A DNA stretch of 64,000 bases from Ecdyonurus torrentis. Its lineage: Eukaryota; Arthropoda; Insecta; Ephemeroptera; Heptageniidae. Below are positions 14,273 to 47,225 of this stretch, one piece after another. Below the pieces are notes generated by a model. The model was not told where the DNA came from and ran no database searches. It saw only the letters and a program-made list of their open reading frames with translations. Position 1 is the first letter of the stretch. The number at the start of each line of letters is the position of its first letter. Position numbers and translations under genes: made by a program. The DNA is taken from contig CASGGR010000022.1 of NCBI GenBank assembly GCA_949318235.1, forward strand, positions 1-64,000, in the 5' to 3' direction.

Positions 14273-17200
14273 CTCACATATCTACTTAATACACAACTAA
14301 AGTCAAGATGATAGTCAGTAATGACGTCACTTATCTACTTAATACAAAACTAAAGTCAAGATGAAAGTCAGTTATGACGTCACATATCTACTTAATACAC
14401 AATTAAAGTCAAGATAATAGTCAGTGGTGACGTCACTTATCTACTCCATACACAACTAAAGTCAAGTTGATAATCAGTTATGACGTCGCTTCTGTACTTC
14501 ATACACAACTAAAGTCAAGTTGAAAAACAATTATGAAGTAACTTATTGATTTCATTAAATACTAAAGCCAAGTTGATAGTCAGTGATGACGTAACATATA
14601 TGCTTCATACACTACTAAGGACAAGTTAATAGTCAGTGATGACGTCACTTATCTACTTTATACACAACTAAAGTCAAGATGAAAGTCAGTGATGACGTCA
14701 CATATCTACTTAATACACAACTTACGTCAAGATAATAGTCAGTGATGACGTCACTTATCTACTTCATACACAACTAAAGTAAAGTAAATAGTCAGTGATG
14801 ACGTCATTTATCTACTTCATACACTACTAAAGTGAAGTTTATAGTCAGTGATGACGTCACTTATATAATTCATACTTAACTAAAGTCAAATTGATAGTCG
14901 GTGATAACGTCACATATCTACTTCATACACTACTACAGTCAAGTTGATAGTAAGTAATGACATCACTTATCTACTTCATCAATACTAAAATTAAGTTGGT
15001 AGTCAGTAATGGCGTCATTTATCTACTACATACATAACTAAAGTCAAGTTAATTGTCAGTAATACGTCACTTATCTACTTCATAAAATACTAAAGTGAAG
15101 TTGATAGTCAGTGATGACGTCACATATCTACTTCATACACTACTACATACAAGTTGATAGTCAGTGATGACATCACTTATCTACTTAATACACTACTAAA
15201 GTCAAGTTGATAGTCAGTGATAATGTCACATATCTACTTTATACACTACAAAAGTCAAATTAATAGTCAGGGATGACATTACTTCTCTACTTCATACACT
15301 ACTAAAGTCAAGTTGATAGTCAGTGATGATGTCACATATCTACTTCATACACTACTAAAGTCAAATTAATAGTCAGTGATGACGTCATTTATCTAGTTCA
15401 TACACTACTAAAGTCAAGGTTATAGTCAGTGATGGCATCACTTATCTACTTCATACACTACTAAAGTTAAGATGATATTTAGTGATAAAGTCACTTATCT
15501 ACTGCATACACAACTAAAGTAAAGTAAATAGTCAGTGATGACGTCATTTATCTACTTCATACACTACTAAAGTGAAGTTTATAGTCAGTGATGGCGTCAC
15601 TTATCTATTTCATACACAACTAAACTCAAGTTGATAGTCAGTGATGATGACACATATCTACTTCATACACTACTAAAGTCAAATTAATAGTCATTGATGA
15701 CGTCATTTATCTACTTCATACACTACTAAAGACAAGTTGATAGTAAGTAATGACATCACTTATCTACTTCATCAATACTAAAATTAAGTTGGTAGTAAGT
15801 AATGGCGTCATTTATCTACTACATACATAACTAAAGTCAAGTTAATTGTCAGTAATACGTCACTTATCTACTTCATAAAATACTAAAGTAAAGTTGATAG
15901 TCAGTGATGATGTCACATATCTACTACGTAAACAGCTAAAGTCAAGTTGATAGTTAGTGATGACGTCACGTATCTACTACATATATAACTAAAGTCAAGT
16001 TAATAGTCAGTGAGGACGTCAGTTATCTACTTTATACACTACCAAAATCAGGTTGATAGTAAGTGATAACGACACATATCTATTTCATACACTACTAAAG
16101 TCAAGTTGATAGTCAGTGATGACGTCACATATCTACTTCATACACTACTACATACAAGTTGATAGTCAGTGGTGACATCACTTATCTACTTAATACACTA
16201 CTAAAGTCAAGTTGATAGTCAGTGATAATGTCACATATCTACTTTATACACTACTAAAGTCAAATTAATAGTCAGTGATGACATTACTTCTCTACTTCAT
16301 ACACTACTAAAGTCAAGTTGATAGTCAGTGATGATGTCACATATCTACTTCATACACTACTAAAGTCAAATTAATAGTCAGTGATGACGTCATTTATCTA
16401 GTTCATACACTACTAAAGTCAAGGTTATAGTCAGTGATGGCATCACTTATCTACTTCATACACTACTAAAGTTAAGATGATATTTAGTGATAAAGTCTTT
16501 TATCTACTGCATACACAACTAAAGTCAAGTTGAAAGTCAGTGATGACGTCATTTATCTACTTCATACACAACTAAACTCAAGTTGATAGTCAGTGATGAT
16601 GACACATATCTACTTCATACACTACTAAAGTCAAATTAATAGTCATTGATGACGTCATTTAACTACTTCATACACTACTAAAGACAAGTTGATAGTCAGT
16701 GTTGACGTCACTTATCTACTTCATCAATACTAAAATCAAGTTGATAGTCAGTGATGGTGTAACTTAAATACTACATACATAACTTAGGTCAAGTTGATAG
16801 TCACTGATGACGTCACTTATCTACTTCATACACTATTAAAGTCAAGTTGATAGTCAGTGATGACGTCAAATATCTACGTCATACACTACTTAAGTCAAAT
16901 TAATAGTCAGTGATTACGTTGCATTTTTCTTCATACACTTCTAAAGTCAAGTTGATAGTCAGTGGTTGCGTCATTTATCTACTTAATACACCACTAAAGT
17001 CAAGATGATATTTAGTAATAACATCACTTATTTACTTCTTACACAACTCAAGTCAAGTTGATAGTCAGTGATGACGTCACATATCTACTACGTAAACAAC
17101 TTATGTTAAGTTGATAGTCACTGATGACGTCACATATCTACTTCATACACTTCTAAAGTCAAGATGATATTTAGTGATAAAGTCACTTATCTACTTCATA

Positions 17201-17994
17201 CACTACTAAAGTCAAGTTGATAGTCATTGATGACGTCACTTATCTATTTCATACACTACTAAAATAAAGTTGATATTCAGTGATGACGTCACATATCTAC
17301 TTCATACACTACTAAAGATCAGTTGATAGTCATTGATGACGTGACTCAGATAATTCATACACAGCTAAAGTCAAATAGATAGTCAGTGATGACGTCACAT
17401 ATCTACTTCATACACTACTACAGTCAAGATGATAGTAAGTGATGACGTGTCACTTATATACTTTATACACTGCTAAAGTTAAGTTGCTAATTAGTTATGA
17501 CGTCACTTTTCTACTTCATCAATACTAAAATCAAGTTAGTAGTCAGTGATTGTGTCACTTATCTACTTCATACACTACTAAAGTAAAGTTGATAGTCAGT
17601 GATGATGTCACATATCTACTTCATACACTACTAAAGTTAAGTTTATAGTCAGTGATGGCGTCACTTATCTACTTCATACAAAACTAAAGTCAAGTTGAAA
17701 GTCAATTATGACGTCATTTATTGATTTTATACATCACTAAAGCCAAGTTGATAGTCTGTGATGACGTCACAAATTTACTTCATACATTACTAAAAACAAG
17801 TTGATAGTCAGTGATGACTTGACTTATCTATTTTTTACACAATTAAACTCAAATTGATTGTCAGTGATGACGTCACTTATCTACTTCATACACTACTTAA
17901 GTCAAATTGATAGTCAGTGATGACGTTGCATTTCTACTTCATACATTACTAAAGTCAAGTTGATAGTCAGTGATTGCGTCAATTATCTACTTAA
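14273..17994. repeat. Satellite B (53-bp) array, block 1
   Basis: Tandem 53-base monomers with core AGTTGATAGTCAGTGATG, ACGTCACTTATCTACTTC and ATACACTACTAAAGTCA. Most monomers contain the palindrome TGACGTCA; common variants are TGACATCA, TGATGTCA, TGGCGTCA and TTGCGTCA. Individual monomers differ by several substitutions, but longer blocks repeat: the segment around 15098-15480 reappears about 1,005 bases later (about 16103-16490), roughly 19 monomers. The array begins inside the reading frame of the truncated gag. Confidence 0.97.
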
Positions 17995-18782
17995 CCCTCA
18001 AGCGCTCGGACAGGGTCTGTCTCATTTTTGATTAGTTTTTTTAATTTTAAATTTTTTTTAATTGCTCAAAAATTATGAAATTTTGTTACTTCCTCAAAAG
18101 TGTTGACTTACATCTTGACTAAAAAGTTGAGCGCGCAGATTTGATTGCATTATTTGTAATTCCTAATTAAAGTTTTGATTTTGCGTGAACAGCTGTACCG
18201 GGTCTGGGACATCTGCATACCTGATCCATATAAAAATATAAAAGGTCACCCCTTGAGTAGTCGATGACTTTGGAGTGAAAATTTTATTCTCCTGAGTGGT
18301 TACAAAAATAAAGAGGGGACCTTTTTTTCGCAAAGAAAAATAATGTTAGGTATAAGATAAAAAATACGGGATTTTATAAGCAATATTGCCTTCTTGCATT
18401 AATTATTATTATATATTATAAAACAATGCCGCTCTTTTGATGCTTCATTCATGTCCTTATAATATACACCAGCTAATGAAAATAAATATATAAAAGGTGT
18501 AAAAAAATACGCGTGTAGTGTGGTAAGAAAAGTAAAAAAAAAAAAAAAAAAAACGCAGTACTAAATAACGTCATAAAATAAAAATGGTAATTGTTAAAAT
18601 CTAGTATAAAATATATCATCTCTGTAATTTGTAATGCCATATATAATTATTGCAAATATCTACGTCTGAAAGATTTTTAGATCTGTAAGAGAAATTATGT
18701 ATAAAAATATGCATATTTGAATATAATTATATAATTTAAAATAAAAATATCATGACAAAAAAAACGTTCTGCTAAACGAACA
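17995..18782. mobile_element. piggyBac-like fragment inserted at TTAA (long copy)
   Basis: CCCTCAAGCGCTCGG begins directly after TTAA (17991-17994) in a satellite B monomer, the start expected of a piggyBac-type terminus. The unfilled monomer is visible at about 22320-22350, where the same context reads on from TTAATACACC. The right end shows neither a matching CCC...GGG terminus nor a TTAA; satellite resumes at AAAGTCAAG, so that end plus about ten flanking bases look deleted. No open frame is present. The sequence includes an A run near 18536. A shorter copy lies at 31178-31631. Confidence 0.6.
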
Positions 18783-21054
18783 AAAGTCAAGTTGATAGAC
18801 AGTGATGACGTCACTTATCTATTTCATACACTACTAAAGACCAGTTGATAGTCAGTGATGACGTCACTTATCTACTTCATCAATACTAAAATCAAGTTGG
18901 TAGTCAGTGATGGCGTCACTTATCTAATTTATTAAATACTAAAGTATAGATGATAATCATTGATGACGTTACTTATCTATTTCATACACTAATAAAGTCA
19001 AGTTGATAGTAAGTGTTGACGTCACTTATCTACTACATACATAACTAAAGTCAAGTTGATAGTCAGTGATGACGTCACTTATCTACCTCATACACTACTA
19101 AAGTCAAGATGATAGTCAGTGGTGACGTCACATATCCACTAAATACACAACTAAAGTCAAGATAATAGTCAATGATGACGTCACTTTTCTACTCCATACA
19201 CTACTTAATTTAAGTTGATAGTCAGTGATGACGTCTTTTATCTACTTCATACACCACAAAAGTCAAGATGATATTTAGTAAAAACGTCACTTATCTACTT
19301 CATACACAACTAAAGTCAAGTTGATAGTCAGTGATGACATCACTTATCTACTTCATCAATACTAAAATCAAGCTGGTAGTCAGTGATTGCGTCACTTATC
19401 TACTTCATACACTACTAAAGTCAAGTTGATAGTCAGTGATGATGACACATATCTATTTCATACACTACTAAAGTCAAATTAATAGTCCGTGATGACGTCA
19501 TTTATCTAGTTCATCCACTACTAAAGTCAAGTTTATAGTCAGTGATAGCGTCAATTATCTACTTCATACACTATTAAACTTAAGATGATATTTAGTGATA
19601 AAGTCACTTATCTACTGCATACACTACTAAAGTCAAGTTGATACTCAGTGATGACGTCACTTATCTATTTCTTTCATTTCTAAAAACCAGTTGATAGTCA
19701 GTGATGACGTCACTTAAATAATTTATACACAATTCAAGTTAAATTGATAGTTAGTGATGACGTCACTTATTTTCTTCATACACTACTACAGTCAAGTTGA
19801 TTGTCAGTAATGACGTCACTTATCTACTTCATATATACTAAAATCAAGTTGGTAGTCAGTGATGGCGTCTATTATCTACTACATACATAACTAAATTCAA
19901 GTTAATAGTTTGTGATTACGTCACTTATCTACTTCATAAAAAAATAAAGTGAAGATGATATTTAGTAATAACGTCACTTATCTACTTCATACACAACTAA
20001 AGTCAAGTTGGGAGTCAGAAAATCGACGTCACTTATCTACTTCATACACTACTAAAGTCAAGTTGATAGTCAGTGATGACGTCACATATCTACTACGTAA
20101 ACAACTAAAGTAAAGTTGATACTCAGTGATGACGTCACTTATTTACTTCATTAATACTAGAATCAAGTTGGTAGTCAGTGATGGCGTCACTTATCTACTA
20201 CATTCATAACTAAAGTCAAGTTAATAGTCAGTGAAGACGTCACTTATCTATGTCATAAAAAACTAAAGTGAAGATGATATTTAGTAATAACGTCACATAT
20301 CTACTTCATACACAACTAAAGTCAAGTTGGGAGTCAGAAAATCGACGTCACTTATCTACTTCATACACTACTAAAGTCAAGTTGATAGTCAGTGATGACG
20401 TCACATATCTACTACGTAAACAACTAAAGTAAAGTTGATACTCAGTGATGACGTCACTTATTTACTTCATTAATACTAGAATCAAGTTGGTAGTCAGTGA
20501 TGGCGTCACTTATTTACTACATTCATAACTAAAGTCAAGTTAATAGTCAGTGAAGACGTCACTTATCTATGTCATAAAAAACTAAAGTGAAGATGATATT
20601 TAGTAATAACGTCACATATCTACTTCATACACAACTAAAGTCAAGTTGAGAGTCAGAAATGACGTCACTTATCTACTTCATACAATACTAAAGACAAGTT
20701 TGTAGTCAGTGATGGCGTCACTTATCTAATTTATTAAATACTAAAGTCTAGATGATAGTCAGTGATGACGTTACTTATCTACTTAATATACCACTAAAGT
20801 CAAGATGATATTTAGTGATAAAGTCACATATCTACTTCATACACTACTAAAGTCAAGTTGATAGTCATTGATGACGTCACTTATCTTTTTCATACACTAC
20901 TAAAGATCAGTTGATAGTCAGTGATGACGTAACTTATATAATTCATACACAACTTAAGTCAAATTGATAGTCAGTGATGACGTCTCATATCTACTTCATA
21001 CACTACTAAAATCAAGATGATAGTCAGTGATGACGTCTTTTATATACTTTATAC
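18783..21054. repeat. Satellite B array, block 2
   Basis: 53-base monomers as in block 1. A six-monomer block with the unusual GGGAGTCAGAAAATCGACG variant occurs at about 20008 and again at about 20327, offset 319 bases, and the surrounding monomers match in order. This is a recent local tandem duplication. The block ends with CTTTATAC (21047-21054), the left target duplication of the hAT-like element. Confidence 0.96.
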
Positions 21055-21964
21055 CAGGGGTTCGGACCCGTCACAAAAATTATCGGGTCCGCGGACCCGG
21101 GTCCGGGACCTGAAAAAAAATTGACGGGTCCGCGGAGCCGGGTCCGGACCCTTTAAATTTTTTTTGGGTCCGCGGAGCCGGGTCCGGACCCGTCAATTTT
21201 TTTTCCGGGTCCGGGTCCCGGCTCCGGACCCGATCAAAATCTTCATATAGGTCCGGGTCCGGCTCCGGGTCCAGCTCCGAGGTTATTATATAAATTTGTA
21301 AAATTAACTTTAAAATTAATTTGAGATTGTGAATCTAAAAAAGAATGCACGCTTTTTATTAGATGGAATAACAAATAAATATTTTTTCAGTATAATATGC
21401 TTTATTGATTTTTTGTTTCCACTTAACAAAGTGTTATTCATTTCTGGCTGCAATAAAACAGCTTGTCAGTCATATTCTATGCACACATATCTATAATAGC
21501 TAATATCACAAGCTTTTAGTCAGACATAATATTTAAAACAATATAACAATAAAAATACATTAATAGTCAAATTCACAATTTTGATTTACAACACAAGTCA
21601 TTTTTTTATTTAATGTGTTTGTTCAGATCAACATTATGTCATTTATTTTTTCATTTATAGTCATTTTTTTTCAAAGTCGGGTCCGGGTTTTTGGACCCTT
21701 TTTTTTAAAAGTTCGGGTCCGCGGAGCCGAGTCCGTACCCATCAATTTTTTTTTCGGGTCCGCGGAGCCGGGTCCGGACCCGTCAAATTTTTTCTCGGGT
21801 CCGCGGAGACGGGTCCGGACCCGTTAATTTTTTTTTCGGGTCCGCGGACCCGGCTCCGAAAGACCCGTCCAAAATATAGGGTTTTGGCCGGACCTGGGTC
21901 CGGGTCCGGGTCTAGGTCCGGGTCTGGGTCCGGGTCCAAGTCCGGGTCCGGGTCCGAACACCTG
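21055..21964. mobile_element. GC-rich hAT-like non-autonomous element (copy 1, uninterrupted)
   Basis: Begins CAGGGGTTCGGACCCG and ends CGGGTCCGAACACCTG, flanked by an exact 8-base duplication CTTTATAC at 21047-21054 and 21965-21972. Eight-base duplications and CAGGG ends are characteristic of hAT. The unfilled site is seen at about 34995-35015, where a satellite B monomer carries a single CTTTATAC. Both arms are arrays of a GC-rich motif of about 38 bases (GGGTCCGCGGAGCCGGGTCC, then GGACCCGTCAATTTTT). The centre (about 21285-21670) is AT-rich. Open frames at 21615-21939 are Pro/Asp/Arg repeats of the GC motif and not genes. Confidence 0.85.
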
Positions 21965-24900
21965 CTTTATACACTGCTAAAGTCAAGTTGCTAATCAGTT
22001 ATGTCGTCACTTATCTACTTCATACACAACTAAAGTCAAGTTGAAAGTCCATTATAACGTCATTTAATCGACTTTATACAATACTAAAGCCAAGTTGATA
22101 GTCTGTGATGACGTCACATATCTACTTCATACATTACTAAAAACAAGTTGATAGTCAGTGATGACTTGACTTATCTACTTTATACACAACTAAACTCAAA
22201 TTGATTGTCAGTGATGACGTCACTTATTTACTTCATACACTACTAAAGTCAAATTGATAGTCAGTGATTACGTTGCATTTCTCCTTCATACACTACTAAA
22301 GTCAAGTTGATAGTCAGTGATTGCGTCAATTATCTACTTAATACACCACTAAAGTCAAGATGATTTTTTGGAATAACGTCACTTATCTACTTCATACACA
22401 ACTAAAATTAAGTTGATAGTCCGTGATGACGTCATGTATCTACATCATACAATGCTAAAGTCAAGTTGATTGTCAGTGATGACGTCACTTATCTACATCA
22501 TACAATGCTAAAGTCAAGTTGATAGTCAGTTATTACGTCACTTATCTATTTCATTCACTACTAAAAACAAGTTGATAGTCAGTGATGACGTCACTTATAT
22601 AATTTATACACAATTAAAGTTAAATTGATAGTCAGTGATGACGTCACATATCTTCTTCATACACTACTACAGTCAAGTTAATAGACAGTAATGACGTCAC
22701 TTATCTACTTCATATATACTAAAATCAAGTTGGTAGTCAGTGATGGCGTCACTTATCTACTTCATACATAACTAAAGTCAAGTTAATAGTCAGTGTTGAC
22801 GTCACTTATCTACTTTATAAAAAACTAAAGTGAAGATGATTTTCAGTAATAACGTCACTTATCTACTTCATACACAACTAAAGTCAAGTTGAGAGTCAGA
22901 AATGACGTCACATATCTACTTCATACACTACTTAAGTCAAATTAATAGTCATTGATGACGTCATTTATCTACTTCATACACTACTAAAGACAAGTTGATA
23001 GTCAGTGTTGACGTCACTTATCTACTTCATCAATACTAAAATCAAGTTGGTAGTCAGTGATGGTGTAATTTAAATACTTCATACATAACTAAAGTCAAGT
23101 TGATAGTCAGTGATGACGTCACTTATCTACTTCATACACTATTAAAGTCAAGTTGATAGTCAGTGATGACGTCAAATATCTACGTCATACACTACTAAAG
23201 TCAAATTAATAGTCAGTGCTTACGTTGCATTTTTCTCCATACACTACTAAAGTCAAGTTGATAGTCAGTGATTGCGTCATTTATCTACTTAATACACCAC
23301 TAAAATCAAGATGATATTTAGTAATAACATCACTTATTTACTTCTTACACAACTCAAGTCAAGTTGATAGTCATTGATGAGGTCACATAACTACTACGTA
23401 AACAACTTATGTTAAGTTGATAGTCACTGATGACGTCACATATCTACTTCATACACCACTAAAGTCAAGTTAATAGTCAGTGATGATGTTACATATCTAT
23501 TTCATACACTACTAAAGTCAAGATGATAGTCAGTGATTACGTCACATATCTACTTCATACACAACTAAAGTAAAGTAAATAGTCAGTGATGACGTCATTT
23601 ATCTACTTCATACACTACTAAAGTTAAGTTTATAGTCAGTGATAGCGTCACTTATCTACTTCATACACTACTAAAGTCAAGATGATATTTAGTGATAAAG
23701 TCACGTATCTACTTCATACAATACTAAAGTCAAGTTGATAGTCATTGATGACGTCACTTATCTATTTCATACACTACTAAAGTCAAGTTAATAGTCAGTG
23801 ATGACGTCACATGTCCACTAAATACACAACTAAAGTCAAGATAATAGTCAATGATGACGTTACTTTTCTACTCCATACACTACTTAATTTAAGTTGATAG
23901 TCAGTGATGACGTCTTTTATCTACTTCATACACCACAAAAATCAAGATGATATTTAGTAAAAACGTCACTTATCTACTTCATACACAACTAAAGTCAAGT
24001 TGATAATCAGTGATGACATCACTTATCTACTTCATCAATACTAAAATCAAGTTGGTAGTGAGTGATTGCGTCACTTATCTACTTCATACACTACTAAAGT
24101 CAAGTTGATAGTCAGTGATGATGTTACATATCTATTTCATACACTACTAAAGTCAAATTAATAGTCCGTGATGACGTCATTTATCTAGTTGATACACTAC
24201 TAAAGTCAAGTTTATAGTCAGTGATAGCGTCCATTATCTACTTCATACACTACTAAAGTTAAGATGATATTTAGTGATAAAGTCACTTATCTACTGCATA
24301 CACAACTAAAGTCAAGTTGATAGTCAGTGATGACGTCATTTATCTACTTCATACACTACTAAAGTCAAGTTGATACTCAGTGATGACGTCACTTATCTAT
24401 TTCATTCACTAATAAAAACCAGTTTATAGTCATCGATGACGTCACTTATATAATCTATACACAATTCAAATTAAATTGATAGTCAGTGATGACGTCACTT
24501 ATTTTCTTCATACACTACTACAGTCAAGTTGATTGTCAGTAATGACGTCACTTATCTACTTCATATATACTAAAATCAAGTTGGTAGTCAGTGATGGCGT
24601 CTATTATCTACTACATACATAACTAAATTCAAGTTATTAGTTAGTGATTACGTCACTTATCTACTTCATAAAAAAATAAAGTGAAGATGATACTTAGTAA
24701 TAACGTCACTTATCTACTTCATACACAACTAAAGTCAAGTTGATACTCAGTGATGACGTCACTTATTTACTTCATCAATACTAGAATCAAGTTTGTAGTC
24801 AGTGATGACGTCACTTATCTAATTTATTAAATACTAAAGTCTAGATGATAGTCAGTGATGACGTTACTTATCTACTTAATATACCTCTAAAGTCAACATG

Positions 24901-25306
24901 ATTTTTAGTAATAACGTCACTTATATAATTCATACACATCTAAAGTCAAATTAATAGTCAGTGATAACGTCACATATCTATTTCATACACTACTACATAT
25001 AAGTTAATAGTCAATGATGACATCACTTATCTACTTAATACACCACTAAAGTCAAGATGATATTTAGTGATAAAGTCACATATCTACTTCATACACTACT
25101 AAAGTCAAGTTGATAGTCATTGATGACGTCACTTATCTTTTTCATACACTACTAAAGATCAGTTGATAGTCAGTGATGACGTCACTTATATAATTCATAC
25201 ACAACTTAAGTCAAATTGATAGTCAGTGATGACGTCTCATATCTACTTCATACATTACTAAAATCAAGATGATAGTCAGTGATGACGTCTTTTATATACT
25301 TTATAC
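21965..25306. repeat. Satellite B array, block 3
   Basis: About 3.3 kb of 53-base monomers between the two hAT-like copies. Its first kilobase parallels the sequence after the second hAT copy (from 29108, offset about 7,143 bases), and its end parallels the sequence before the first copy (for example AATACTAAAGTCTAGATGAT at about 20734 and 24829). This shows that element and satellite were duplicated together. Confidence 0.95.
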
Positions 25307-28300
25307 CAGGGGTTCGGACCCGTCACAAAAATTATCGGGTCCGCGGACCCGGGTCCGGGACCTGAAAAAAAATTGACGGGTCCGCGGAGCCGGGTCCGGA
25401 CCCTTTAAATTTTTTTCGGGTCCGCGGAACCGGGTCCGGACCCGTCAATTTTTTTTCCGGGTCCGGGACCCGGCTCCGGACCTGATCAAAATCTTCATAT
25501 AGGTCCGGGTCCGGCTCCGGGTCCGGCTCAGAGGTAATTATATAAATTTGTAAAATTAACTTTAAAATTAATTTGAGATTGTGAATCTAAAAAAGAATGC
25601 ACGCTTTTTATTAGATGGAATAACAAATAAATATTTTTTCAGTATAATATGCTTTATTGATTTTTTGTTTCCACTTAACAAAGTGTTATTCATTTCTGGC
25701 TGCAATAAAACAGCTTGTCAGTCATATTCTATGCACACAAATCTATAATAGCTAATATCACAAGCTTTTAGTCAGACATAATATTTAAAACAATATAACA
25801 ATAAAAATACATTAATAGTCAAAATCACAATTTTGATTTACAACACAAGTCATTTTTTTATTTAATGTGTTTGTTCTGATCAACATTATGTCATTTATTT
25901 TTTCATTTATAGTCATTTTTTTTCAAAGTCGGGTCCGGGTTTTTGGACCCTTTTTTTTAAAAGTTCGGGTCCGCGGAGCCGAGTCCGGACCCGTCAATTT
26001 TTATTTCGGGTCCGCGGAGCCGGGTCCGGACCGCGATTTTTGAAACCCCCTGCATGTTCAGTGTACGGCTTAAAAAAGTGCTCTGATTGGCTGATTTCGT
26101 CACGTGACTTAGGTGTCACTGCATTTCCCTCGTATTTGAAGCACTTTTTAACTTTTCTCCTTTTTCCTTTTGCAGAAAAAATTATTTCTTTGCAAATTAT
26201 TGAAGAGTGTATATTTAGCTCAATTTGTGCATGAGGGTTTGAGGAGAAAATCAAAACTCAAACAAATATGCTTAGTTTTAAAGTGCAGTGACTTCGAAAA
26301 ATCAGTTCAAATGGTTTCCCGCGAAAAATTATCTCGGTTATGAATAATTCCATCAAATTGGATGTCATATTGGTGATATTACTTTACATTTAAATATATT
26401 TGAATACTTTTTAATTCTTGCAAAAGAAATTAAAATCTGATGTAGGAAGAAAAAAGAAGACTAAAAAAAAAAAAAAAAAGTGAGAGAGAGAGAGAGAGAG
26501 AGAGGAAAAAACTTTATATTATTATTTATTATATTATTGTCAGTATTTTTTTTTAAGTGCAATATACTTTAGAGTTAATTTCAAAATATATAATTTATGT
26601 TTATGCTCAATTTTAACTTTATACGTTTTAATCTTTAATGATTTGCAAGTGACAAGAATGTCATATTTGTAAAATACATTTTTTAAATTTAATTTTCATT
26701 GCTCTCTTTCTCTCTCATTTCAATTTTTTTCCGTAGGTATTTTATGCACAAGCTTTCGGAATAAAATTGAAGTATTCTTATTATCATATTTTTATTTGTC
26801 TAAATAATATAAAATGTTGCCAGCAGTTTTAAAAATAAAATCTATAAATATTAACCAAATAAATGATTTAATTTTTAATTTTTTAATTTTTTTTTTTTTA
26901 CAAAGATAATTAATCATTGTACAGAAAAAAAAATTGCGCTTCTTAAACATGAAATTAGTAATTTAATAAACTATATATTGCTGTAAATTATGTTGCATTT
27001 ATGGATTTAATTTGTTTAAGATCTTCTGAATGAGGAAATTTATATGCAAGTTTTTTTTTTTTTTTTTTTTTTACTGCCCTGCGATCCACATTGAAAAGTT
27101 TAGGGCGTTTTAAATAAATAATTTTAATATGGTATTAAAAATTGTGACAAATAAAGAAACTATCTAAATTATACCTTAAAATTCATTTTCATTTTATTTA
27201 TTACGTTTTTCAATTTAATTTTAACAAACAACAGTGTTCTTTATAATTATTTTATATATAGAAAGGTTTATGATTTAATTAAATGGTTTTTTTTAATATA
27301 ATTGCAAAGCATGCAAAAATAATAGTCATTATAAGATCTTAAACATATCTAACAGCAAAATAATATATTCATCTATATTTCTATGCAATGGAAAACATAC
27401 ATTACGCAGTTTTACATTGCTAAATAAAATAACTCCTAAACAGTATTTTAGAGCACAATTCATGCTATTTCCTAATAAAATAGGCATTTATGCTGAATGC
27501 TGAACATCTTAACTTTAAAGCTATGTAGTATAACCACTGTAATATAGTAACATAAGTTTATGATTATAATGCTGTAAATTATTATTCTTTTTGTTAATTT
27601 TTATGTTATAAAATGAAAAATGTTGTAATGCATAAATATTTCTGTATTGAGCTATGGCCTATAAAGTATAATCATTCATTTTATAATATATATACATTCA
27701 TATATTTTTTCCGTGCAGATACAATTTTCAAAGTAGTAAATTAATTCTTTATATAAAAAAATAGTAAATAAAAATATAAATTGTTTAAAAAGTTTTTAAC
27801 TTTGTATTTAAAGCTGCAGAACTTTAAAAAATCATATTGTAAACTGCATCATGCTATATGCAATAAAATTACAAGTTGCAACTATTAAGTCAGATGTAAT
27901 ATATTATTATATTCAACATAATACAGTTTTAGTCCGAAACTTAGCGCATGTTAAAATTATTTAAATTAAACACACTAATCTTTTCAATGTGGATCGCAGT
28001 GCATTTAAAAATATAGGTTACATTTAAAATTTCTTATATCTTAAGCAAATTAAATCCATAAGTGCAACATAGTTTACAGCTATATTCTCTATTTTTGCAA
28101 TATTTAGTTTATTAAATTACTAATTTCATGTAATATATTTTTTTAATCTATCTCTATCTCACACACTTGTTTAAGAAGCGCAATTTTTTTTTCTGTACAA
28201 TGATTAATTATCTTTGTAAAAAAAAAAAAATTAAAAATTAAATCATTTATTTGGTTAATATTTATAGATTTTATTTTTAAAACTGCTGGCAACATTTTAT

Positions 28301-29107
28301 ATTGTTTAGACAAATAAAAATATGATAATAAGAATACTTCAATTTAATCAATTTTATTCCGAAAGCTTGTGCATAAAATACCTACGGAAAAAAATTGAAA
28401 TGAGAGAGAGAGAAAGAGAGCAATAAAAATTAAATTTAAAAAATGTATTTTAAAAATATGACATTCTTGTCACTTGCAAATCATTAAAGATTAAAACGTA
28501 TAAAGTTAAAATTGAGCATAAACATAAATTATATATTTTGAAATTAACTCTAAAGTATATAACACTTAAAAAAAAATACTGACAAATGTAAACTAATATC
28601 ACCAATATGACATCCAATTTGATGGAATTATTCATAACCGAGATAATTTTTCGCGGGAAACCATTTGAACTGATTTTTCGAAGTCACTGCACTTTAAAAC
28701 TAAGCATATTTGTTTGAGTTTTGATTTTCTCCTCAAACCCTCATGCACAAATTGAGCTAAATATACACTCTTCAAATTTTTGCAAACAAATAATAATTTT
28801 TTCTGCAAAAGGAAAAAGGAGAAAAGTTAAAAAGTGCTTCAAATACGAGGGAAATGCAGTGACACCTAAGTCACGTGACGAAATCAGCCAATCAGAGCAT
28901 TTTTTTAAGCCGTACACTGAACATGCAGGGGGTTTCAAAAATCGAGTCCGGACCCGTCAATTTTTTTCTCGGGTCCGCGGAGACGGGTCCGGACCCGTTA
29001 ATTTTTTTTCGGGTCCGCGGACCCGGCTCCGAAAGACCCGTCCAAAATATAGGGTTTTGGCCGGACCCGGGTCCGGGTCCGGGTCCGGGTCCGGGTCCGA
29101 ACACCTG
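25307..29107. mobile_element. GC-rich hAT-like element (copy 2, carrying a nested insertion)
   Basis: Same termini as copy 1 and the same CTTTATAC flanks (25299-25306 and 29108-29115). It follows copy 1 closely through the left GC arm, AT-rich middle and start of the right arm until 26032. It is then interrupted by the 2.9-kb element at 26033-28945 and resumes at 28946 with the remainder of the right arm. Without the insertion it would be slightly shorter than copy 1. Open frames at 25994-26254 and 28721-29137 cross the junctions of the nested element and are not genes. Confidence 0.85.
26033..28945. mobile_element. Foldback / Mutator-like element with ~1-kb inverted arms, nested in hAT copy 2
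   Basis: Left end GCGATTTTTGAAACCCCC and right end GGGGGTTTCAAAAATCGA are inverted. The inverted similarity continues through CTCTGATTGGCTGATTTCG/CGAAATCAGCCAATCAGAG, GTCACGTGAC, and on to about 27108 and 27975, giving arms near 1 kb. GTCCGGACC flanks both sides (26024-26032 and 28946-28954), while hAT copy 1 has it once, so the target duplication is 8-9 bases. Long arms with 9-base duplication fit Mutator-like or foldback elements. The left arm has about 140 extra bases including an AG run (about 26397-26540) absent from the right arm. The centre (about 27110-27975) is AT-rich and non-coding, so no transposase is encoded. Confidence 0.8.
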
Positions 29108-31177
29108 CTTTATACACTGCTAAAGTCAAGTTGCTAATCAGTTATGACGTCACTTATCTACTTCATACACAACTAAAGTCAAGTTGAAAGTCCATTATAT
29201 CGTCATTTATCGAATTTATACAATACTAAAGCCAAGTTGATAGTCTGTGATGACGTCACATATCTACTTCATACATTACTAAAAACAAATTAATAGTCAG
29301 TGATGACTTGACTTATCTACTTCATACACAACTAAACTCAAATTGATTGTCAGTGATGACGTCACTTATTTACTTCATACACTACTAAAGTCAAATTGAT
29401 AGTCAGTGATTACGTTGCATTTCTCCTTCATACACTACTAAAGTCAAGTTGATAGTCAGTAATTGCGTCAATTATCTACTTAATACACCACTAAAGTCAA
29501 GATGATTTTTAGGAATAACGTCACTTATCTACTTCATACACAACTAAAATCAAGTTGATAGTCAGTGATGACGTCATGTATATACATCATACAATGCTAA
29601 AGTCAAGTTGATTGTCAGTGATGACGTCACTTATCTACATCATACAATGCTAAAGTCAAGTTGATAGTCAGTTATTACGTCACATATCTACTTCATACAC
29701 AACTAAAGTAAAGTAAATAGTCAGTGATGACGTCATTTATCTACTTTGTACACTACTAAAGTTAAGTTTATAGTCAGTAATGACGTCATTTATCTACTTC
29801 ATACACTACTTAAGTCAAGTTGAAATTCAGTTATGACGTCACTTATCTATTTCATTCACTACTAAAGACCAGTTGATAGTCAGTGATGACGTCACTTATA
29901 TAATTTATACACAATTAAAATTAAATTGATAGTCAGTGATGACGTCACATATCTTCTTCAAACACTGCTACAGTCAAGTTAATAGACAGTCATGACGTCA
30001 CTTATCTACTTCATACATAACTAAAGTCAAGTTAATAGTCAGTGATGACGTCACTTATCTACTTTATAAAAAACTAAAGTGAAGATGATATCCAGTAATA
30101 ACGTCACTTATCTACTTCATACACAACTAAAGTCAAGTTGAGAGTCAGAAATGACGTCACATATCTACTTCAGACACTACTAAAGTCAAATTAATAGTCA
30201 TTGATGACGTCATTTATCTACTTCATACACTACTAAAGACAAGTTGATAGTCAGTGTTGACGTCACTTATCTACTTCATCAATACTAAAATCAAGTTGAT
30301 AGTCAGTGATGGTGTAACTTAAATACTTTATACATAACTAAAGTCAAGTTGATAGTCAGTGATGACGTCACTTATCTACTTCATACACTATTAAAGTCAA
30401 GTTGATAGTCAGTGATGACGTCAAATATCTACGTCATACACTACTAAAGTCAAATAAATAGTCAGTGATTACGTTGCATTTTTCTTCATACACTACTAAA
30501 GTCAAGTTGATAGTCAGTGATTGCGTCATTTATCTACTTAATACACCACTAAAGTCAAGATGATATTTAGTAATAACATCACTTATTTACATCTTACACA
30601 ACTCAAGTCAAGTTGATAGTCAGTGATGACGTCACATATCTACTACGTAAACAACTTATGTTAAGTTGATAGTCACTGATGACGTCAAATATCTACTTCA
30701 TACACCACTAAAGTCAAGTTAATAGTCAGTGATGAAGTTACATATCTATTTCGTACACTACTAAAGTCAAGATGATAGTCAGTGATTACGTCACATATCT
30801 ACTTCATACACAACTAAAGTGAAGTAAATAGTCAGTGATGACGTCATTTATCTACTTCATACACTACTAAAGTTAAGTTTATAGTCAGTGATGGCGTCAC
30901 TTATCTACTTCATACACTACTTAAGTCAAGTTGATAGTCAGTGATGACGTCACATATCTACTTCATACACTACTAAAGATCAGTTGATAGTCAGTGATGA
31001 CTTGACTTATCTATTTTTTACACAACTAAACTCAAATAGATAGTCAGTGATGACGTCACTTATCTACTTCATACACTACTAAAGTCAAATTGATAGTCAG
31101 TGATGACGTTGCATTTCTACTTCATACACTACTAAAGTCAAGTTGATAGTCAGTGATTGCGTCAATTATCTACTTAA
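29108..31177. repeat. Satellite B array, block 4
   Basis: 53-base monomers. The beginning parallels block 3 from 21965 monomer for monomer, and the end parallels the monomers leading into the first piggyBac-like copy, which makes it a mosaic of earlier blocks. TGACGTCA is retained in most units. Confidence 0.95.
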
Positions 31178-31631
31178 CCCTCAAGCGCTCGGACAGGGTC
31201 TGTCTCATTTTTGAGTTAGTTTTTTTAATTTTAAATTTTTTTTAATTGCTCAAAAATTATGAAATTTGGTTACTTCCTCAAAAGTGTTGACTTACATCTT
31301 GACTAAAAAGTTGAGCGCGCAGATTTGATTGTATTAATTGTAATTCCTAATTAAAGTTTTGATTTTGCGTGAACAGCCGTACCGGGTCTGGGACATCTGC
31401 GTACCTGATCCATATAAAAATATAAAAGGTCACCCCTTGAGTAGTCGATGACTTTGGAGTGAAAATTTTATTCTCCTGAGTGGTTACAAAAATAAAGAGG
31501 GGACCTTTTTTTCGCAAAGATTTTTAGATCTGTAAGAGAAATTATGTATAAAAATATGCATATTTGAATATAATTATATAATTTAAAATAAAAATATCAT
31601 GACAAAAAAAAAACGTTCTGCTAAACGAACA
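31178..31631. mobile_element. piggyBac-like fragment (short copy, internal deletion)
   Basis: Starts CCCTCAAGCGCTCGG after TTAA (31174-31177) and ends GTTCTGCTAAACGAAC, as in the longer copy at 17995-18782. It lacks about 337 internal bases, corresponding to 18336-18672, with an AAAG microhomology at the break. The flanking satellite monomers on the left are the same as those of the long copy, so the two descend from one insertion. No coding frame. Confidence 0.6.
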
Positions 31632-34600
31632 AAAGTCAAGTTGATAGTCAGTGATGACGTCACTTATCTATTTCATACACGACTAAAGACCAGTTGATAG
31701 TCAGTGATGACGTCACTTATATAATTCATACACAACTAAAGTCAAATTGATAGTCAGTGATGACGTCACATATCTACTTCATAAACTACTACAATCAAGT
31801 TGATTGTCAGTAATGACGTCACTTATCAACTTCATCAATACTAAAATCAAGTTGGTAGTCAGTGATGGCGTCACATATCTACTACATACATAACTAAAGT
31901 CAAGTTAATAATCAGTGATGACGTCACTTATCTACTTCATAAAAAACTTAAGTGAAGATGATAGTCAGTGATGACGTCACTTATCTTCTTCGTACACTAC
32001 TTAAATCAAGTTTATAGTCATTGATGACGTCACTTATTTATTTTATACACTACTAAACACCAAATGATAGTCAGTAAAGACGTCACTTATATAATGCTTA
32101 CACAACTAAAGTCAAATTGATAGAAAGTGATTACGTCACATATCTACTTTATACACTACTAAATACAAGTTAATAGTCAATGATGACGTCACATATCTAC
32201 CTCATACACTACTAAAGTCAAGATGATAGTCAGTGGTGACGTCACATATCCACTAAATACACAACTAAAGTCAAGATAATAGTCAATGATGACGTCATTT
32301 TTCTACTCCATACACTACTTAATTCAAGTTGATAGTCAGTGATGACGTCTTTTATCTACTTCATACACCACAAAAGTCAAGATGATATTTAGTAAAAACG
32401 TCACTTATCTACTTCATACACTACTAAAGTTAAGTTGATAGTCAGTGATGACGTCACATATCTACTACGTAAACAACTTATGTAAAGTTGATAGTCACTG
32501 ATGACGTCACATATCTACTTCATACACTACTAAAGTTAAGATGATATTTAGTGATAAAGTCACTTATCTACTGCATACACAACTAAAGTCAAGTTGATAG
32601 TCAGTGATGACGTCAGTTATCTACTTTATACACTACTAAAATCAAGTTCATAGTCAGTGATGACGACACTTATCTATTACATACACTACTTAACACCAGT
32701 TGATAGTCAGTGATGACGTCACTTATAAAATTCATACACATCTAAAGTCAAATTAATATTCAGTGATAACGTCACATATCTACATCATACACTACTACAT
32801 ATAAGTTAATAGTCAGTTATGACATCACTTATCTACTTATACACTACTAAAGTCAAGTTGATAGTCAGTGATAATGTCACATATCTACTTTATACACTTC
32901 TAAAGTCAATTTAATAATTAGTGATGACGTCATTTATCTACTTCATGCACTACTAAAGTCAAGTTGATAGTCAGTGATGACGTCACATATCTACTACGTA
33001 AACAACTTATGTAAAGTTGATAGTCACTGATGACGTCACATATCTACATTATACACTACTAAAGTCAAGATGATAGTCAGTGATTACGTCACAAATCTAC
33101 TTCATACACAACTAAAGTAAAGTATATAGTCAGTGATGACGCCATTTATCTACTTCATACACTACTAAAGTCAAGTTTATAGTCAGTGATGGCGTCACTT
33201 ATCTACTTCATACACTACTAAAGTCAAGATCATATTTATTGATAAAGTCACTTATCTACTTCATACACTACTAAAGTCAAGTTGATAGTCATTGATGACG
33301 TCACTTATCTATTTCATACACTACTAAAGATCAGTTGATAGTCAGTGATGACGTGACTAATAAAATTCATACACAACTAAAGTCAAATTGATAGACAGTG
33401 ATAACGTCACATATCTACTTCATACACTACTACATTCAAGTTGATAGTCAGTGATGACGTCTCATATCTACTTCATATACTACTAAAGTCAAGATGATAG
33501 TCATTGATGACGTCACATATCTACTTCATACACTACTACATATTAGTTAATAGTCAGTTATGACATCACTTATCTACTTAATACACTACTAAAGTCGAGT
33601 TGATAGTCAGTGATGATGTCACATATCTACTTCATACACTACTAAAGTCAAGTTTATAGTCAGTGATGGCGTCACTTATCTACTTCATACACTACTAAAG
33701 GCAAGATGATATTTAGTGATAAAGTCACTTATCTACTTCATACACTACTAAAGTCAAGTTGATAGTCATTGATGACGTCACTTATCTATTTCATACACTA
33801 CTAAAGATCAGTTGATAGTCAGTGATGACGAGACTAATATAATTCAAACACAATTAAAGTTAAATTGATAGTCAGTGATGACGTCACATATATACTTCAT
33901 ACACTACTACAGTCAATTGTTAGTCAGTGATGACGTCTCATATCTACTTCATACACTACTAAAGTCAAGATGATAGTCAGTGATGACGTCATTTATCTAC
34001 TTAAAACACTACTAAAGTCAAGTTGATAGTCAGTGATGACGTCACATATCTACTACGTAAACAACTTATGTAAAGTTGATAGTCACTGATGACGTCACAT
34101 ATCTACTTCATATACTACTAAAGTCAAGTTAATAGTCAGTGATGATGTTACATATCTACTTTATACACTACTAAAGTCAAGATGATAGTCAGTGATTACG
34201 TCACAAATCTACTTTATACACATATAAAGTAAAGCATATAGTCAGTGATGACGTCATTTATCTACTTCATACACTACTAAAGTCAAGTTTATAGTCAGTG
34301 ATGGCGTCACTTATCTACTTCATACACTACTAAAGACAAGCTGATATTTAGTGATAAAGTCACTTTTCTACTGCATACACAAGTAAAGTCAAGTTGATAC
34401 TCAGTGATGACGTCAGTTATCTATTTCATCCCCCACTAAAGACCAGTTGATAGTCAGTGATGACGTCATTATATAATTTATACACAACTCAAGATAAATT
34501 GATAATCAGTGATGACGTCACATATCTACTTCATACACTACTACAGTCAAGTTGATATTCAGTGATGACATCACTTATCTACTTAATACACTACTTAAGT

Positions 34601-37600
34601 CAAGTTGATATTTAGTGATACAATCACTTATCTACTTCATACACTACTAAAGTCAAGTTGATAGTCATTGATGACGTCACTTATCTATTTCATACCCTAC
34701 TAAAGATCAGTTGATAGTTAGTGATGACGTGACTTATATAATTCAAACAAAACTTAAGTCAACTTGATAGTCAGTGATGACGTCACATATCTATTTCATA
34801 CACTACTACAGTCAAGTTGATAGTCAGTGATGACGTCACTTATCTACTTCATACACTACTAAAGATCAGTTGTTAGTCAGTGATGACGTGACTTATATAA
34901 TTCTTACAAAACTTAGGTCAAATTGATAGTCAGTGATGACGTCACATATCTACTTCATACACTACTAAAGTCTAGATGATAGTCAGTGATGACGTCTTTT
35001 ATATACTTTATACACTGCTAAAGTCAAGTTGCTAATCAGCTATGACGTCACTTATCTACTTCATACACAACTAAAGTCAAGTTGAAAGTCCATTATGACG
35101 TCATTTATCGAATTTATACAATACTAAAAACAAGTTGAGTGTCAGTGATGACTTGACTTATTTACTTCATACCGAACTAAAGTCAAGTTGATAATCAGTG
35201 ATGACGTCACTTATCTACTTCATACACAACTAAAGTCAAATTGATAGTCAGTGATGACGTCACATATCTACTACGTAAACAACTAAAGTCAAGTTGATAG
35301 TCAGTGATGACGTTGCATTTCTACTTCATACACTACTAAAGTCAATTTGAATGTCAGTGATTGCGTCACTTATCTACTTAATATACCACTAAAGTCAACA
35401 TGATATTTAGTAATAACGTCACTTATCTACTTCATACACAACAAATGTCAAGTTGATAGACAGTGATGACGTCACATATCTACTTCATACACAACTAAAG
35501 TAAAGTAAATAGTCAGTGATGACGTCATTTATCTACTTCATACACTACTAAAGACCAGTTAATAGTCAGTGATGACATCACTTATATAATTTATACATAA
35601 CTAAAGTCAAATTGATAGTCGGTGATGACGTCACATATCTACTTCATAGACTACTACAGTCAAGTTGATAGAAAGTAATGACGTCATTTATCTACTTCAT
35701 CAATACTAAAATTATGTTAGTAGTCAGTGATGGCGTCCATTATCTACTACATACAGAACTTAAGTTAAGTTAATAGTCAGTAATGACGTCACTTATCTAA
35801 TTCATAAAATACTAAAGTGAAGCTGATAGTCAGTGATGGCGTCACATATCTACTTCATACACTACTAAAGTGAAGTTGATAGTCAGTGATGATGTCACAT
35901 ATCTACTTCATACACTACTAAAGTTAAGTTTATAGTCAGTGATGGCGTCACTTATCTACTTCATACAAAACTAAAGTCAAGTTGAAAGCCAATTATGACG
36001 TCATTTATCGACTTTATACATTACTAAAGCCAAGTTGATAGTCTGTGATGACGTCACAAATTTACTTCATACATTACTAAAAACAAGTTGATAGTCAGTG
36101 ATGACTTGACTTATCTATTTTTTACACAACTAAACTCAAATTGATTGTCAGTGATGACGTCACTTATATAATTCATACACAACTAAAGTCAAATTGATAG
36201 TCAGTGATGACGTCACATATCTACTTCATAAACTTCTACAGTCAAGTTGATTGTCAGTAATGACGTCACTTATCTACTTCATCAATACTAAAATAAAGTT
36301 GGTAGTCAGTGATGGCGTCACTTATCTAATACATACATAACTAAAGTCAAGTTAATAATCAGTGATGACGTCACTTATCTACTTCTTAAAAAACTAAAGT
36401 GAAGATGACATTTAGTAATAACGTCACTTATCTACTTCATACAATACTAAAGTCAAGTTTGTAGTCAGTGATGGCGTCACTTATCTAATTTATTAAATAC
36501 TAAAGTATAGATGATAGTCATTGATGACGTTACTTATCTATTTCATACACTAATAAAGTCAAGTTGATAGTCAGTGGTGACGTCACATATCCACTTAATA
36601 CACAACTAAAGTCAAGATAATAGTCAATTAGGACGTCAATTTTCTACTCCATACACTACTTAATTCAAGTTGATAGTCAGTGGTGACGTCTTTTATCTAC
36701 TTCATACACCACAAAAGTCAAGATGATATTTAGTAAAAACGTCACTTATCTACTTCATACACTACTAAAGTCAAGTTTATAGTCAGTGATAGCGTCAATT
36801 ATCTACTTCATAAACTACTAAATACAAGTTTATAGTCAATGATGACGTCACATATCTACCTCATACACTAGTAAAGTCAAGATGATAGTCAATGGTGACG
36901 TCACATATCCACTAAATACACAACTAAAGTCAAGATAATAGTCAATGATGACGTCATTTTTCTACTCCATACACTACTTAATTCAAGTTGATAGTCAGTG
37001 ATAACGTCTTTTATCTACTTCATACACCACAAAAGTCAAGATGATATTTAGTAAAAACGTCACTTATCTACTTCATACACAACTAAAGTCAAGTTGATAA
37101 TCATTGATGACGTCATTTATCTTCTTCATACACTACTCAAGTTAAGTTAATAGTCAGTGATGACGTCACATGTCCACTAAATACACAACTAAAGTCAAGA
37201 TAATAGTCAATGATGACGTCACTTTTCTACTCCATACACTACTTAATTTAAGTTGATAGTCAGTGATGACGTCTTTTATCTACTTCATACACCACAAAAA
37301 TTAAGATGATATTTAGTAAAAACGTCACTTACATGTCTAATTCATACACAACTAAAGTCAAGTTGATAATCAGTGATGACATCACTTATCTACTTCATCA
37401 ATACTAAAATCAAGTTGGTAGTCAGTGATTGCGTCACTTATCTACTTCATACACTACTAAAGTCAAGTTGATAGTCAGTGATGATGTCACATATCTATTT
37501 CATACACTACTAAAGTCAAATTAATAGTCCGTGATGACGTCATTTATCTAGTTCATACACTACTAAAGTCAAGTTTATAGTCAGTGATAGCGTCAATTAT

Positions 37601-40219
37601 CTATTTCATACACTACTAAAGTTAAGATGATATTTAGTTATAAAGTCACTCATCTACTGCATACACAACTAAAGTCAAGTTGATAGTCAGTGAAGACGTC
37701 ACTTATCTACTTCATACACTACTAAAGTCAAGTTGATACTCAGTGATGACGTCACTTATCTATTTCATTCACTACTAAAAATCAGTTGATAGTCAGTTAT
37801 GACGTCACTTATATAATTTATACACAATTTAAGTTAAATTGATAGTCAGTGATGACGTCACTTATTTTCTTCATACACTACTACAGTCAAGTTGATAGTC
37901 AGTAATGACGTCACTTATCTACTTCATATATACTAAAATGAAGTTGGTAGTCAGTGATGGCGTCTATTATCTACTACATACATAACTAAATTCAAGTTAA
38001 TAGTCAGTGATGACGTCACTTATCTACGTCATAAAAAACTAAAGTGAAGATGATATTTAATAATAACGTCACATATCTACTTCATACACAACTACAGCCA
38101 AGTTGATAGAAAGTAATGACGTCACTTATCTACTTCATACACAACTACAGTCAAGTTGATAGAAAGTAATGACGTCACTTATCTACTTCATTAATACTAA
38201 AATTATGATGGTAGTCAGTGATGGCGTCCCTTATCTACTACATACATAACTTAAGTCAATTCAATAGTCAGTAATGACGTCACTTATCTAATTCATAAAA
38301 TACTAAAGTGAAGCTGATAGTCAGTGATGATGTCACATATCTACTACGTAAAAAACTTTAATCAAGTTGGTAGTTAGTGATGACGTCACGTATCTACTAC
38401 ATATATAACTAAAGTCAAGTTGAAAGTCAGTGATGACGTCAGTTATCTACTTTATACATTACTAAAATCAAGTTGATAGTCAGTGATGACGACACTTATC
38501 TATTTCATACACTACTAACGTCAAATTAATAGTTAGTGATGACCTCATTTATCTACTTCATGCACTACTAAAGTCAAGTTTATCGTCAGTGATAGCGTCA
38601 CTTATCAACTTCATACAATACTAAAGTTAAGATGAAATTTAGTGATAAAGTCACTTCTCTACTGCATACACAACTAGAGTCAAGTTGATATTCAGTGATG
38701 ACGTCATTTATCTACTTCATACACTACTAAAGACCAGTTGATAGTCAGTGATGACGTCACTTATATAATTCATACATAACTAAAGTCAAATTAACAATCA
38801 TTGATGACGTCACTTATCTATTTCATACACTGCTAAAGTCAAGTTGATAGTCAGTGATGACGTCACATAGCTACTTCATACACTACTAAAGTAAAGTTGA
38901 TAGTCAGTTATGACGTCACTTATATAATTCATACACAACTAAAGTCAAATTGATAGTCAGTGATGACGTCACATATCTACTTCATAAACTACTACAGTCA
39001 AGTTGATTGTCAGTAATGACGTCACTTATCTACTTCATCAATACTAAAATCAAGTTGGTAGTCAGTGATGGCGTCACATATCTACTACATACATAACTAA
39101 AGTCAAGTTAATAGTCAGTGATGACGTCACTTATCTACTTCATAAAAAACTAAAGTGAAGATGATATTTAGTAATAACGTCACTTATCTACTTCATACAA
39201 TACTAAAGTCAAGTTTGTAGTCAGTGATGGCGTCACTTATCTAATTTATTAAATACTAAAGTATAGATGATAGTCATTGATGACGTTACTTATCTATTTC
39301 TTACACTAATAAAGTCAAGTTGATAGTAAGTGATGACGTCACTTATCTACTACATAAATAACTAAAGTCAAGTTGATAGTCAGTGATGCCGTCACTTATC
39401 TTCTTCATACACTACTTAAATCAAGTTTATAGTCATTGATGACGTCACTTATTTATTTTATACACTACTAAACACCAAATGATAGTCAGTAAAGACGTCA
39501 CTTATATAATGCTTACACAACTAAAGTCAAATTGATAGAAAGTGATTACGTCACATATCTACTTCATACACTACTAAAGTCAAGATGATAGTCAGTGGTG
39601 ACGTCACATATCTACCTCATACACTACTAAAGTCAAGATGATAGTCAGTGGTGACATCACATATCCACTTAATACACAACTAAAGTCAAGATAATAGTCA
39701 ATGATGACGTCATTTTTCTACTCCATACACTACTTAATTCAAGTTGATAGTCAGTGATGACGTCACAGGTCTACTAAATACACAACTAAAGTCAAGATAA
39801 TAGTCAATGATGACGACACTTTTCTACTCCATACACTACTTAATTCAAGTTGATAGTCAGTGATGACGTCTTTTATCTACTTCATACACCACAATAGTCA
39901 AGATGATATTTAGTAAATACGTCACTTATCTACTTCATACACAACTAAAGACAAGTTGATAATCATTGAAGACGTTATTTATCTACTTCATACACTACTC
40001 AAATCAAGTTATTAGTCAGTGATGACGTCACATGTCCACTAAATACACAACTAAAGTCAAGATAATAGTCAATGATGACGTCATTTTTCTACTCCATACA
40101 CTACTTAATTCAAGTTGATAGTCAGTGATGACGTCTTTTATCTACTTCATACACCACAAAAGTCAAGATGATATTTAGTAAAAACGTCACTTATTTACTT
40201 CATACACAATTAAAGTCAA
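31632..40219. repeat. Satellite B array, block 5
   Basis: The longest uninterrupted stretch of 53-base monomers, about 8.6 kb. It includes the unfilled hAT target (about 34995-35015). Recurrent variant strings such as GTCACATATCCACTAAATAC followed by CAAGATAATAGTCAATGATG (near 32240, 36900, 37170, 39660, 39770 and 40030) mark higher-order blocks of several monomers. The array ends abruptly after TTAAAGTCAAGTAGAG at about 40219. Confidence 0.96.
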
Positions 40220-45645: not shown

Positions 45646-45773
45646 TCTCCTAATATTTTTCTTAATATACGTAGAATAAGTATTTCAACACTTACACTTG
45701 GATCACCAGTTACTCATGTTAATGGTATACCTTTAGTTTTATAGTTATTTACAATGCTAATAAGGTCTTCCTT
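45646..45773. other. Short spacer between integrase and fibre-like frame
   Basis: No recognisable coding sequence beyond a few in-frame codons preceding the integrase ATG on the minus strand. Confidence 0.4.
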
Positions 45774-46610: not shown

Positions 46611-47225
46611 CTATGAGATAGAAAGTTGCGGTTTTGAAATAAAGTGATGCAAAACACTCTATAGTACTAAATTCACCTCTAGAAACAAAATTGAGAAAAA
46701 AATTTTTTCGAAAAAATTTTTTTTTTTCAGATTCTGAAAACGATTTTTGATGATATCTGAGAAACTAATAATGCTACTGACTTGCGGTTTGAACTCAAAT
46801 GTATCACTTTGAATTGTCTTATGGAAATTTATTACACTTTAGTCACAAAAAATAAAACTTTCTCAGTTTTTGAGAATTTTAGTATTTTCAGTTGAAGTCT
46901 ATAGTTTTTTAGCCCATATGAAGAAAAATAAGTTTGTAACTCAAGTTCCAATTGAGATAGAAAGTTGCGGTTTTGAAATAAAGTGATGCAAAACAATCTA
47001 TAGTACTAAATGCATTTCTAAAAACAAAATTGTGAAAATTTTTTTTTTGAAAAAAATGTCTTTTCAGGTTCGGAAAACGATTTTTGATGATATCTCAGAA
47101 ACTAATAATGCAACAGACTTTCGGTTTGAACTGAAATGTATCACTATGAATTGTCTTATGAAAAGTTTATTACACTTTAGTCGCATAAAATAAAACTTTC
47201 TCAGTTTTTGAGAATTTAAGTATTT

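Follow-up and report, generated by a model that had tools for sequence, protein, structure and literature searches.

A 20-kb array of a 53-bp satellite in Ecdyonurus torrentis with a cyclic AMP response element octamer in its consensus monomer

Satellite repeats are reported to contain 'natural decoy' sites that sequester C/EBP-alpha (Liu et al. 2007, as described in excerpts of PMC8754650), and in the PRAT satellite of the beetle Palorus ratzeburgii a putative RNA polymerase II promoter lies in the part of the monomer that is best conserved, with transcription shown experimentally (excerpts of PMC2220036). Here we describe a satellite of 53-bp monomers, whose consensus contains the palindromic octamer TGACGTCA, in a stretch of 64,000 nucleotides of Ecdyonurus torrentis (Ephemeroptera, Heptageniidae; GenBank assembly GCA_949318235.1, contig CASGGR010000022.1, positions 1 to 64,000, forward strand), hereafter the window. 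This octamer is the consensus of the cyclic AMP (cAMP) response element (CRE), the site of CREB/ATF dimers of the basic leucine zipper (bZIP) type. Judging from the sequence, the array is probably an ordinary non-coding satellite that had a CRE in its founder unit; CREB/ATF factors may plausibly bind it, and any function is a prediction only.

The name CRE is given to TGACGTCA also in the excerpts of PMC8754650. As with the C/EBP-alpha decoys, a bZIP site is repeated in the 53-bp satellite, and the idea that the array could titrate its factor is the same. With PRAT it shares being an insect satellite in which a predicted regulatory element lies in a stretch that may be conserved. However, sequestration is reported for the decoys, and PRAT combines a predicted promoter with experimental transcription, whereas the 53-bp array is known from sequence alone, its unit having a factor site that is a CRE and not a C/EBP site. 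The CENP-B box of alpha satellite and the CENP-B-box-like Box 1 of Meloidogyne satellites, a 17-bp motif found across highly divergent satellites (excerpts of PMC3694981), are likewise short motifs within satellites proposed to be under constraint; they are kept across divergent satellites, whereas the octamer of the 53-bp unit was seen in one array of one genome. The TCAST satellite of another insect, Tribolium castaneum, has been discussed as a possible origin of regulatory elements, but its repeats have been mapped genome-wide in euchromatin near genes (excerpts of PMC3411249), while the 53-bp satellite is known from one window. By analogy, there is precedent both for satellite sites that titrate a bZIP factor and for an insect satellite with a conserved stretch resembling a promoter. 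In the excerpted literature that we searched, no description of a CRE-bearing satellite was found among the matches listed.

Tandem Repeats Finder placed a head-to-tail 53-bp array at 14274-40221, and wrap-around profile alignment extended its bounds to 14267-40227, where four insertions divide 20,024 bp of repeat into five segments. The alignment used a single orientation (+) and filled every segment without a break. It yielded 383 pieces, 377 of them near-full monomers with at most 10 gaps; the six pieces with more than 10 gaps are left out of all monomer counts. A sequence-only reading had described an array of about 20 kb with several hundred 53-bp monomers, and these figures agree with it. 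Exactly 53 bp long in 338 of 377 cases, the monomers have a mean identity of 0.89 to the consensus and of 0.81 to one another, and 311 distinct sequences are present. The segments are listed below with octamer counts by alignment row (178 of 377 in total), which include three rows that read TGACGTCA only when inserted bases are ignored.

14267..17992, + strand: satellite segment 1, 70 near-full 53-bp monomers, octamer in 30 rows
18773..21054, + strand: satellite segment 2, 43 monomers, octamer in 19 rows
21965..25306, + strand: satellite segment 3, 63 monomers, octamer in 27 rows
29108..31175, + strand: satellite segment 4, 39 monomers, octamer in 22 rows
31622..40227, + strand: satellite segment 5, 162 monomers, octamer in 80 rows

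No fixed higher-order period was detectable up to a lag of 120, and blocks of 5 to 17 consecutive monomers recur within the array. With its many head-to-tail copies and its concerted or block-wise evolution, the array is satellite DNA. Elsewhere in the window we found no convincing isolated monomer (best BLAST E 0.79). The unit contains GTCA at columns 8, 20 and 32, and might stem from a sub-repeat of about 12 bp with GTCA at its end. Gapped self-alignment gave P 0.0075 for offsets 9-15 and P 0.015 for offsets 5-26, but the ungapped circular self-match gave P 0.08, and we do not claim such an origin.

The perfect CRE palindrome is indeed present in the 53-bp consensus, at columns 28-35, and the window holds 182 exact copies of TGACGTCA compared to 0.79 expected from shuffles. 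Uninterrupted copies in the array number 175, all in separate kept monomers or positions, which corresponds to 46% of the 377 monomers. The motif is thus less regular than the sequence-only reading had it, namely in most monomers, usually within the 13-bp GTGATGACGTCAC and about once every 53 bases: the 13-bp form occurs in 79 of 377 rows, a spacing of one monomer accounts for 83 of the 174 gaps between successive exact octamers, and there is one octamer per roughly 114 bp. The remaining rows have one (114), two (74) or three (11) mismatches, and at least one half-site (TGACG or CGTCA) is kept in 297 of 377 monomers. Intact octamers make up 43-56% of the rows in each of the five segments and do not cluster (runs z -0.7). 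Rows with a broken octamer carry no more mismatches elsewhere in the monomer than rows with an intact one (4.95 and 5.17, respectively, P 0.35). A perfect palindrome of at least 8 bp arises somewhere in the unit in 25% of 5,000 shuffled consensuses, and the identity of this one as a CRE was picked out after the fact.

As had been noted, the CpG of the octamer is kept in most units (CG in 311 of 377 rows). C-to-T changes occur in 21 of 377 rows and G-to-A changes also in 21, compared to column means of 32.5 for the ten other C columns and 44 for the seven other G columns; there is therefore no excess of C-to-T or G-to-A decay at the two octamer CpG columns relative to the other C and G columns. 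A second satellite in the same window served as a control:

46614..64000, + strand: 342-bp satellite, 51 copies, same-genome control for CpG change rates

In its 51 copies, CpG C columns had 1.0 changes compared to 0.89 at other C columns, and CpG G columns 1.88 compared to 1.0, which is at most a mild CpG excess. The observed-to-expected ratio of CpG ranged from 0.73 to 1.12 in the four stretches measured. Since CpG decay is not in excess, there is no sign of germline methylation. The data fit a region with little germline methylation, as we infer from the sequence, and in such a region CpG retention is by itself unremarkable. The sequence-only reading had left the choice between an unmethylated array and a selected motif. 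An unmethylated region is sufficient to explain the retention, so selection is not needed for it; signs of selection are suggestive in the whole-array counts given below, absent from block duplicates and rare alleles, and weak when windows are left out of the tree.

The history of the array can be followed through its four insertions:

17993..18772, no strand assigned: insertion in the array, with TTAA-CCCT at its left junction and without a visible TTAA on the right
31176..31621, no strand assigned: shorter copy of the 17993-18772 insertion, with an identical left junction
21055..21964, no strand assigned: non-autonomous hAT-like element, ends CAGGGGTTCGG...AACACCTG, 8-bp target duplication CTTTATAC
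25307..29107, no strand assigned: second copy of the 21055 hAT-like element, again with target duplication CTTTATAC, split by the element at 26034-28944

We take the left junction motif of the first insertion to be piggyBac-like, and the name hAT-like for the elements at 21055 and 25307 is likewise our assumption. Because the two hAT-like copies have the target duplication CTTTATAC in common, and the insertions at 17993 and 31176 their left junction, stretches of the array were duplicated after these insertions. The two hAT-like copies sit in a recurring block of 16 monomers. The element at 26034-28944, about 2.9 kb long, has long inverted repeats with seven arm pairs that are 85-99% complementary, and is nested in the duplicated hAT-like element inside the satellite.

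The array would then have formed when a 53-bp unit happening to contain TGACGTCA was amplified, and would have grown by duplication of blocks ranging from several monomers to several kb, with transposon insertions carried along. The octamer would persist because it was present in the founder unit and because CpG decay is not rapid here, rather than because of any known need of the array. As expected from the CRE consensus, a CREB/ATF-type bZIP dimer that encounters the array in open chromatin would probably find a site fit for binding in about half of the monomers, those with an intact octamer. A role as CREB/ATF decoy or as transcription array is putative, and would arise only if the array were bound.

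Two groups of results weigh against an ordinary satellite with a founder motif. The first is the slow change of the octamer in counts over the whole array. It may favor a selected box, in which a CREB/ATF-type bZIP protein would bind the array, and the array or its carrier would gain because the factor is titrated, the satellite transcribed or its chromatin marked. Since changes are more frequent at C and G than at A and T columns, and the octamer is made up of four columns of either class, its reference was always the columns of equal base class. The resulting P values assume that columns within a base class can be exchanged, take no account of neighbour-dependent mutation and are uncorrected for the number of tests, and exchange between monomers violates the assumption of a tree. 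In all three whole-array analyses the octamer was the slowest of 53 windows (P 0.003-0.01): 70 changes compared to 101 expected in a minimum spanning network (ratio 0.69, P 0.010), 73 compared to 108.5 by parsimony on a FastTree tree (ratio 0.67, P 0.004-0.005), and a ratio of 0.69 in IQ-TREE site rates (P 0.0026). The same trend is detectable when the part at 14267-31175 (52 and 71.8 changes, ratio 0.72, P 0.03, rank 1) and the part at 31622-40227 (42 and 63.2 changes, ratio 0.66, P 0.016, rank 4) are analyzed separately. The two half-sites are alike (0.66, P 0.04, and 0.68, P 0.05), and the CpG is the slowest part (19 changes compared to 37.3 expected, ratio 0.51, P 0.017), unlike the CpG columns of the 342-bp satellite as a group. 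The second group lies outside both satellites, where in 18,712 bp, after removal of repeat copies, TGACGTCA occurs in three unrelated contexts, whereas a first-order Markov chain predicts 0.10 occurrences (P 1.7e-4).

Other counts do not follow the same trend, and the comparison of the octamer with the other 45 positions, which the sequence-only reading had proposed, gave a mixed answer. By exact retention TGACGTCA (178 rows) is surpassed by other 8-mers, among them TATCTACT (212), TAGTCAGT (204) and TCAGTGAT (200). Recent changes, taken from 170 pairs of block duplicates, show no significant depletion (37 in the octamer compared to 45.2 expected, P 0.22, rank 12 of 53), even though the CpG alone is low (4 compared to 15.1, P 0.05). 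Rare alleles are not depleted, with 6 in the octamer compared to 3.6 expected when alleles seen once are counted, and 8 compared to 9.7 for those seen up to three times. In a tree built without the octamer columns its ratio was 0.98 (P 0.43, rank 20 of 53) relative to the columns used in that tree. Because such a comparison is unfair to the octamer, we left out each of 46 windows in turn. The octamer then ranked third of 46 with a ratio of 0.80, close to AAGTTGAT (0.80) and TCAGTGAT (0.81), and the overlapping ATGACGTC came first (0.79). The few old and normal recent changes are the pattern expected of weak purifying selection, and are suggestive of it, but they differ little, and some other windows change at about the same low rate. 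Overall, the octamer is not clearly better kept than the rest of the repeat, and the choice of changes to count decides whether it appears constrained.

The length of the unit would fit a selected box, as 53 bp is close to five helical turns and the sites would face the same way. We nevertheless consider such selection unlikely: besides the recent changes, the rare alleles and the third rank just reported, the six non-CpG positions of the octamer are not significantly slow by themselves (54 changes compared to 71.2, ratio 0.76, P 0.08), GTCA at columns 20-23 is nearly as slow as in the octamer (47 and 37 changes, respectively, with 80 at the third place, as summed column counts), and no more than 46% of the monomers are intact. 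Moreover, three ACG contexts of the 342-bp satellite have a C without any change, so a context effect on the octamer CpG is possible. Still less probable, in our view, is the wider proposal that joins the CRE excess in several unrelated repeats (the 53-bp satellite, an 84-bp minisatellite and a dispersed repeat with a 20-bp palindrome) to the 20-kb array, and would make of the latter a selected CREB/ATF-type binding platform that keeps its intact CRE by purifying selection and serves as a sink or for cAMP-responsive transcription. If the octamer were truly selected, the array would clearly exemplify a satellite maintained by a transcription-factor site, and would offer a natural system for studying the titration of factors by satellites. 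At present, it is a well-bounded example of how difficult it is to separate a founder motif from a selected one.

The palindrome could also be kept for the making of the array, as a box for recombination or rearrangement rather than transcription, a role proposed for CENP-B-box-like motifs in nematode satellites. The slow change of the octamer and the left edge of the array, which at column 25 adjoins it, would both fit, but this holds for one of ten segment edges, the others being eight insertion junctions at columns 44-51 and the array end on the right at column 20, and of the 72 alignment gaps 6 fall inside the octamer compared to 20 at column 50 and 10 at column 11. We therefore hold this role to be very improbable. 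A hairpin or cruciform centred on the palindrome is the least credible of these explanations, although the octamer region does lie in a stem of the folded consensus: one unit folded as RNA gave a z score of -0.52 (54 of 200 shuffles as good) and two units as DNA -1.79 (11 of 200), and no row has a different palindromic octamer at the octamer position. As folding is not significant against shuffles, we rejected it. A satellite with a CRE in its founder unit is the explanation that we consider most probable.

Of the three contexts of TGACGTCA outside the satellites, one is the 84-bp minisatellite (4984-5245), another a dispersed repeat pair (1704 and 5667), and the third a site at 6436. These three sites hint that CRE octamers may be common in the source genome. 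In this comparison, TGACGTCA is third among the 256 palindromic octamers, behind TATATATA and ATATATAT, and the palindrome CCACGTGG occurs twice compared to 0.02 expected. The minisatellite has 3.1 copies of a unit starting with GTGACGTCAC, and BLAST with the 53-bp consensus gave a 10-bp match there and nothing else. The dispersed copies (1698-1717 and 5650-5680) are 77% identical over 313 bp and both carry TGACGTCA, which in the first is the centre of the perfect 20-bp palindrome TGTTTATGACGTCATAAACA.

The window is AT-rich (GC 21-38% per 2 kb) and contains the two satellites as well as transposon remains. Exact-pattern scans of viral and prokaryotic contig collections returned no match for the 53-bp or the 342-bp satellite, a blank that says little because of what these collections hold. 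On the opposite side of the 53-bp array, at 9219-10673, lie 4.4 diverged copies with a 344-bp period that are related to the 342-bp satellite, with shown matches of 82-84%. Broken open frames rich in Asn and Ser, gag-like by eye, occupy 11869-14300 and end where the 53-bp array begins, and the array might belong to them; three frames of this stretch had no Pfam match, and a 171-amino-acid piece (12739-13254) returned six candidates and no relative at E 0.001. Among the four frames scanned, the sole Pfam match was the rve integrase core (E 1.7e-10) in an open frame of 322 amino acids at 44716-45684 on the - strand, presumably of the type found in insect Polinton-like elements. The best 120 of its 3,214 relatives include two from the wasps Glyptapanteles flavicoxis and Nasonia vitripennis, which by themselves would suggest an insect, probably hymenopteran, source, and the nine closest among the relatives listed, 68-73% identical, come from metagenome contigs.

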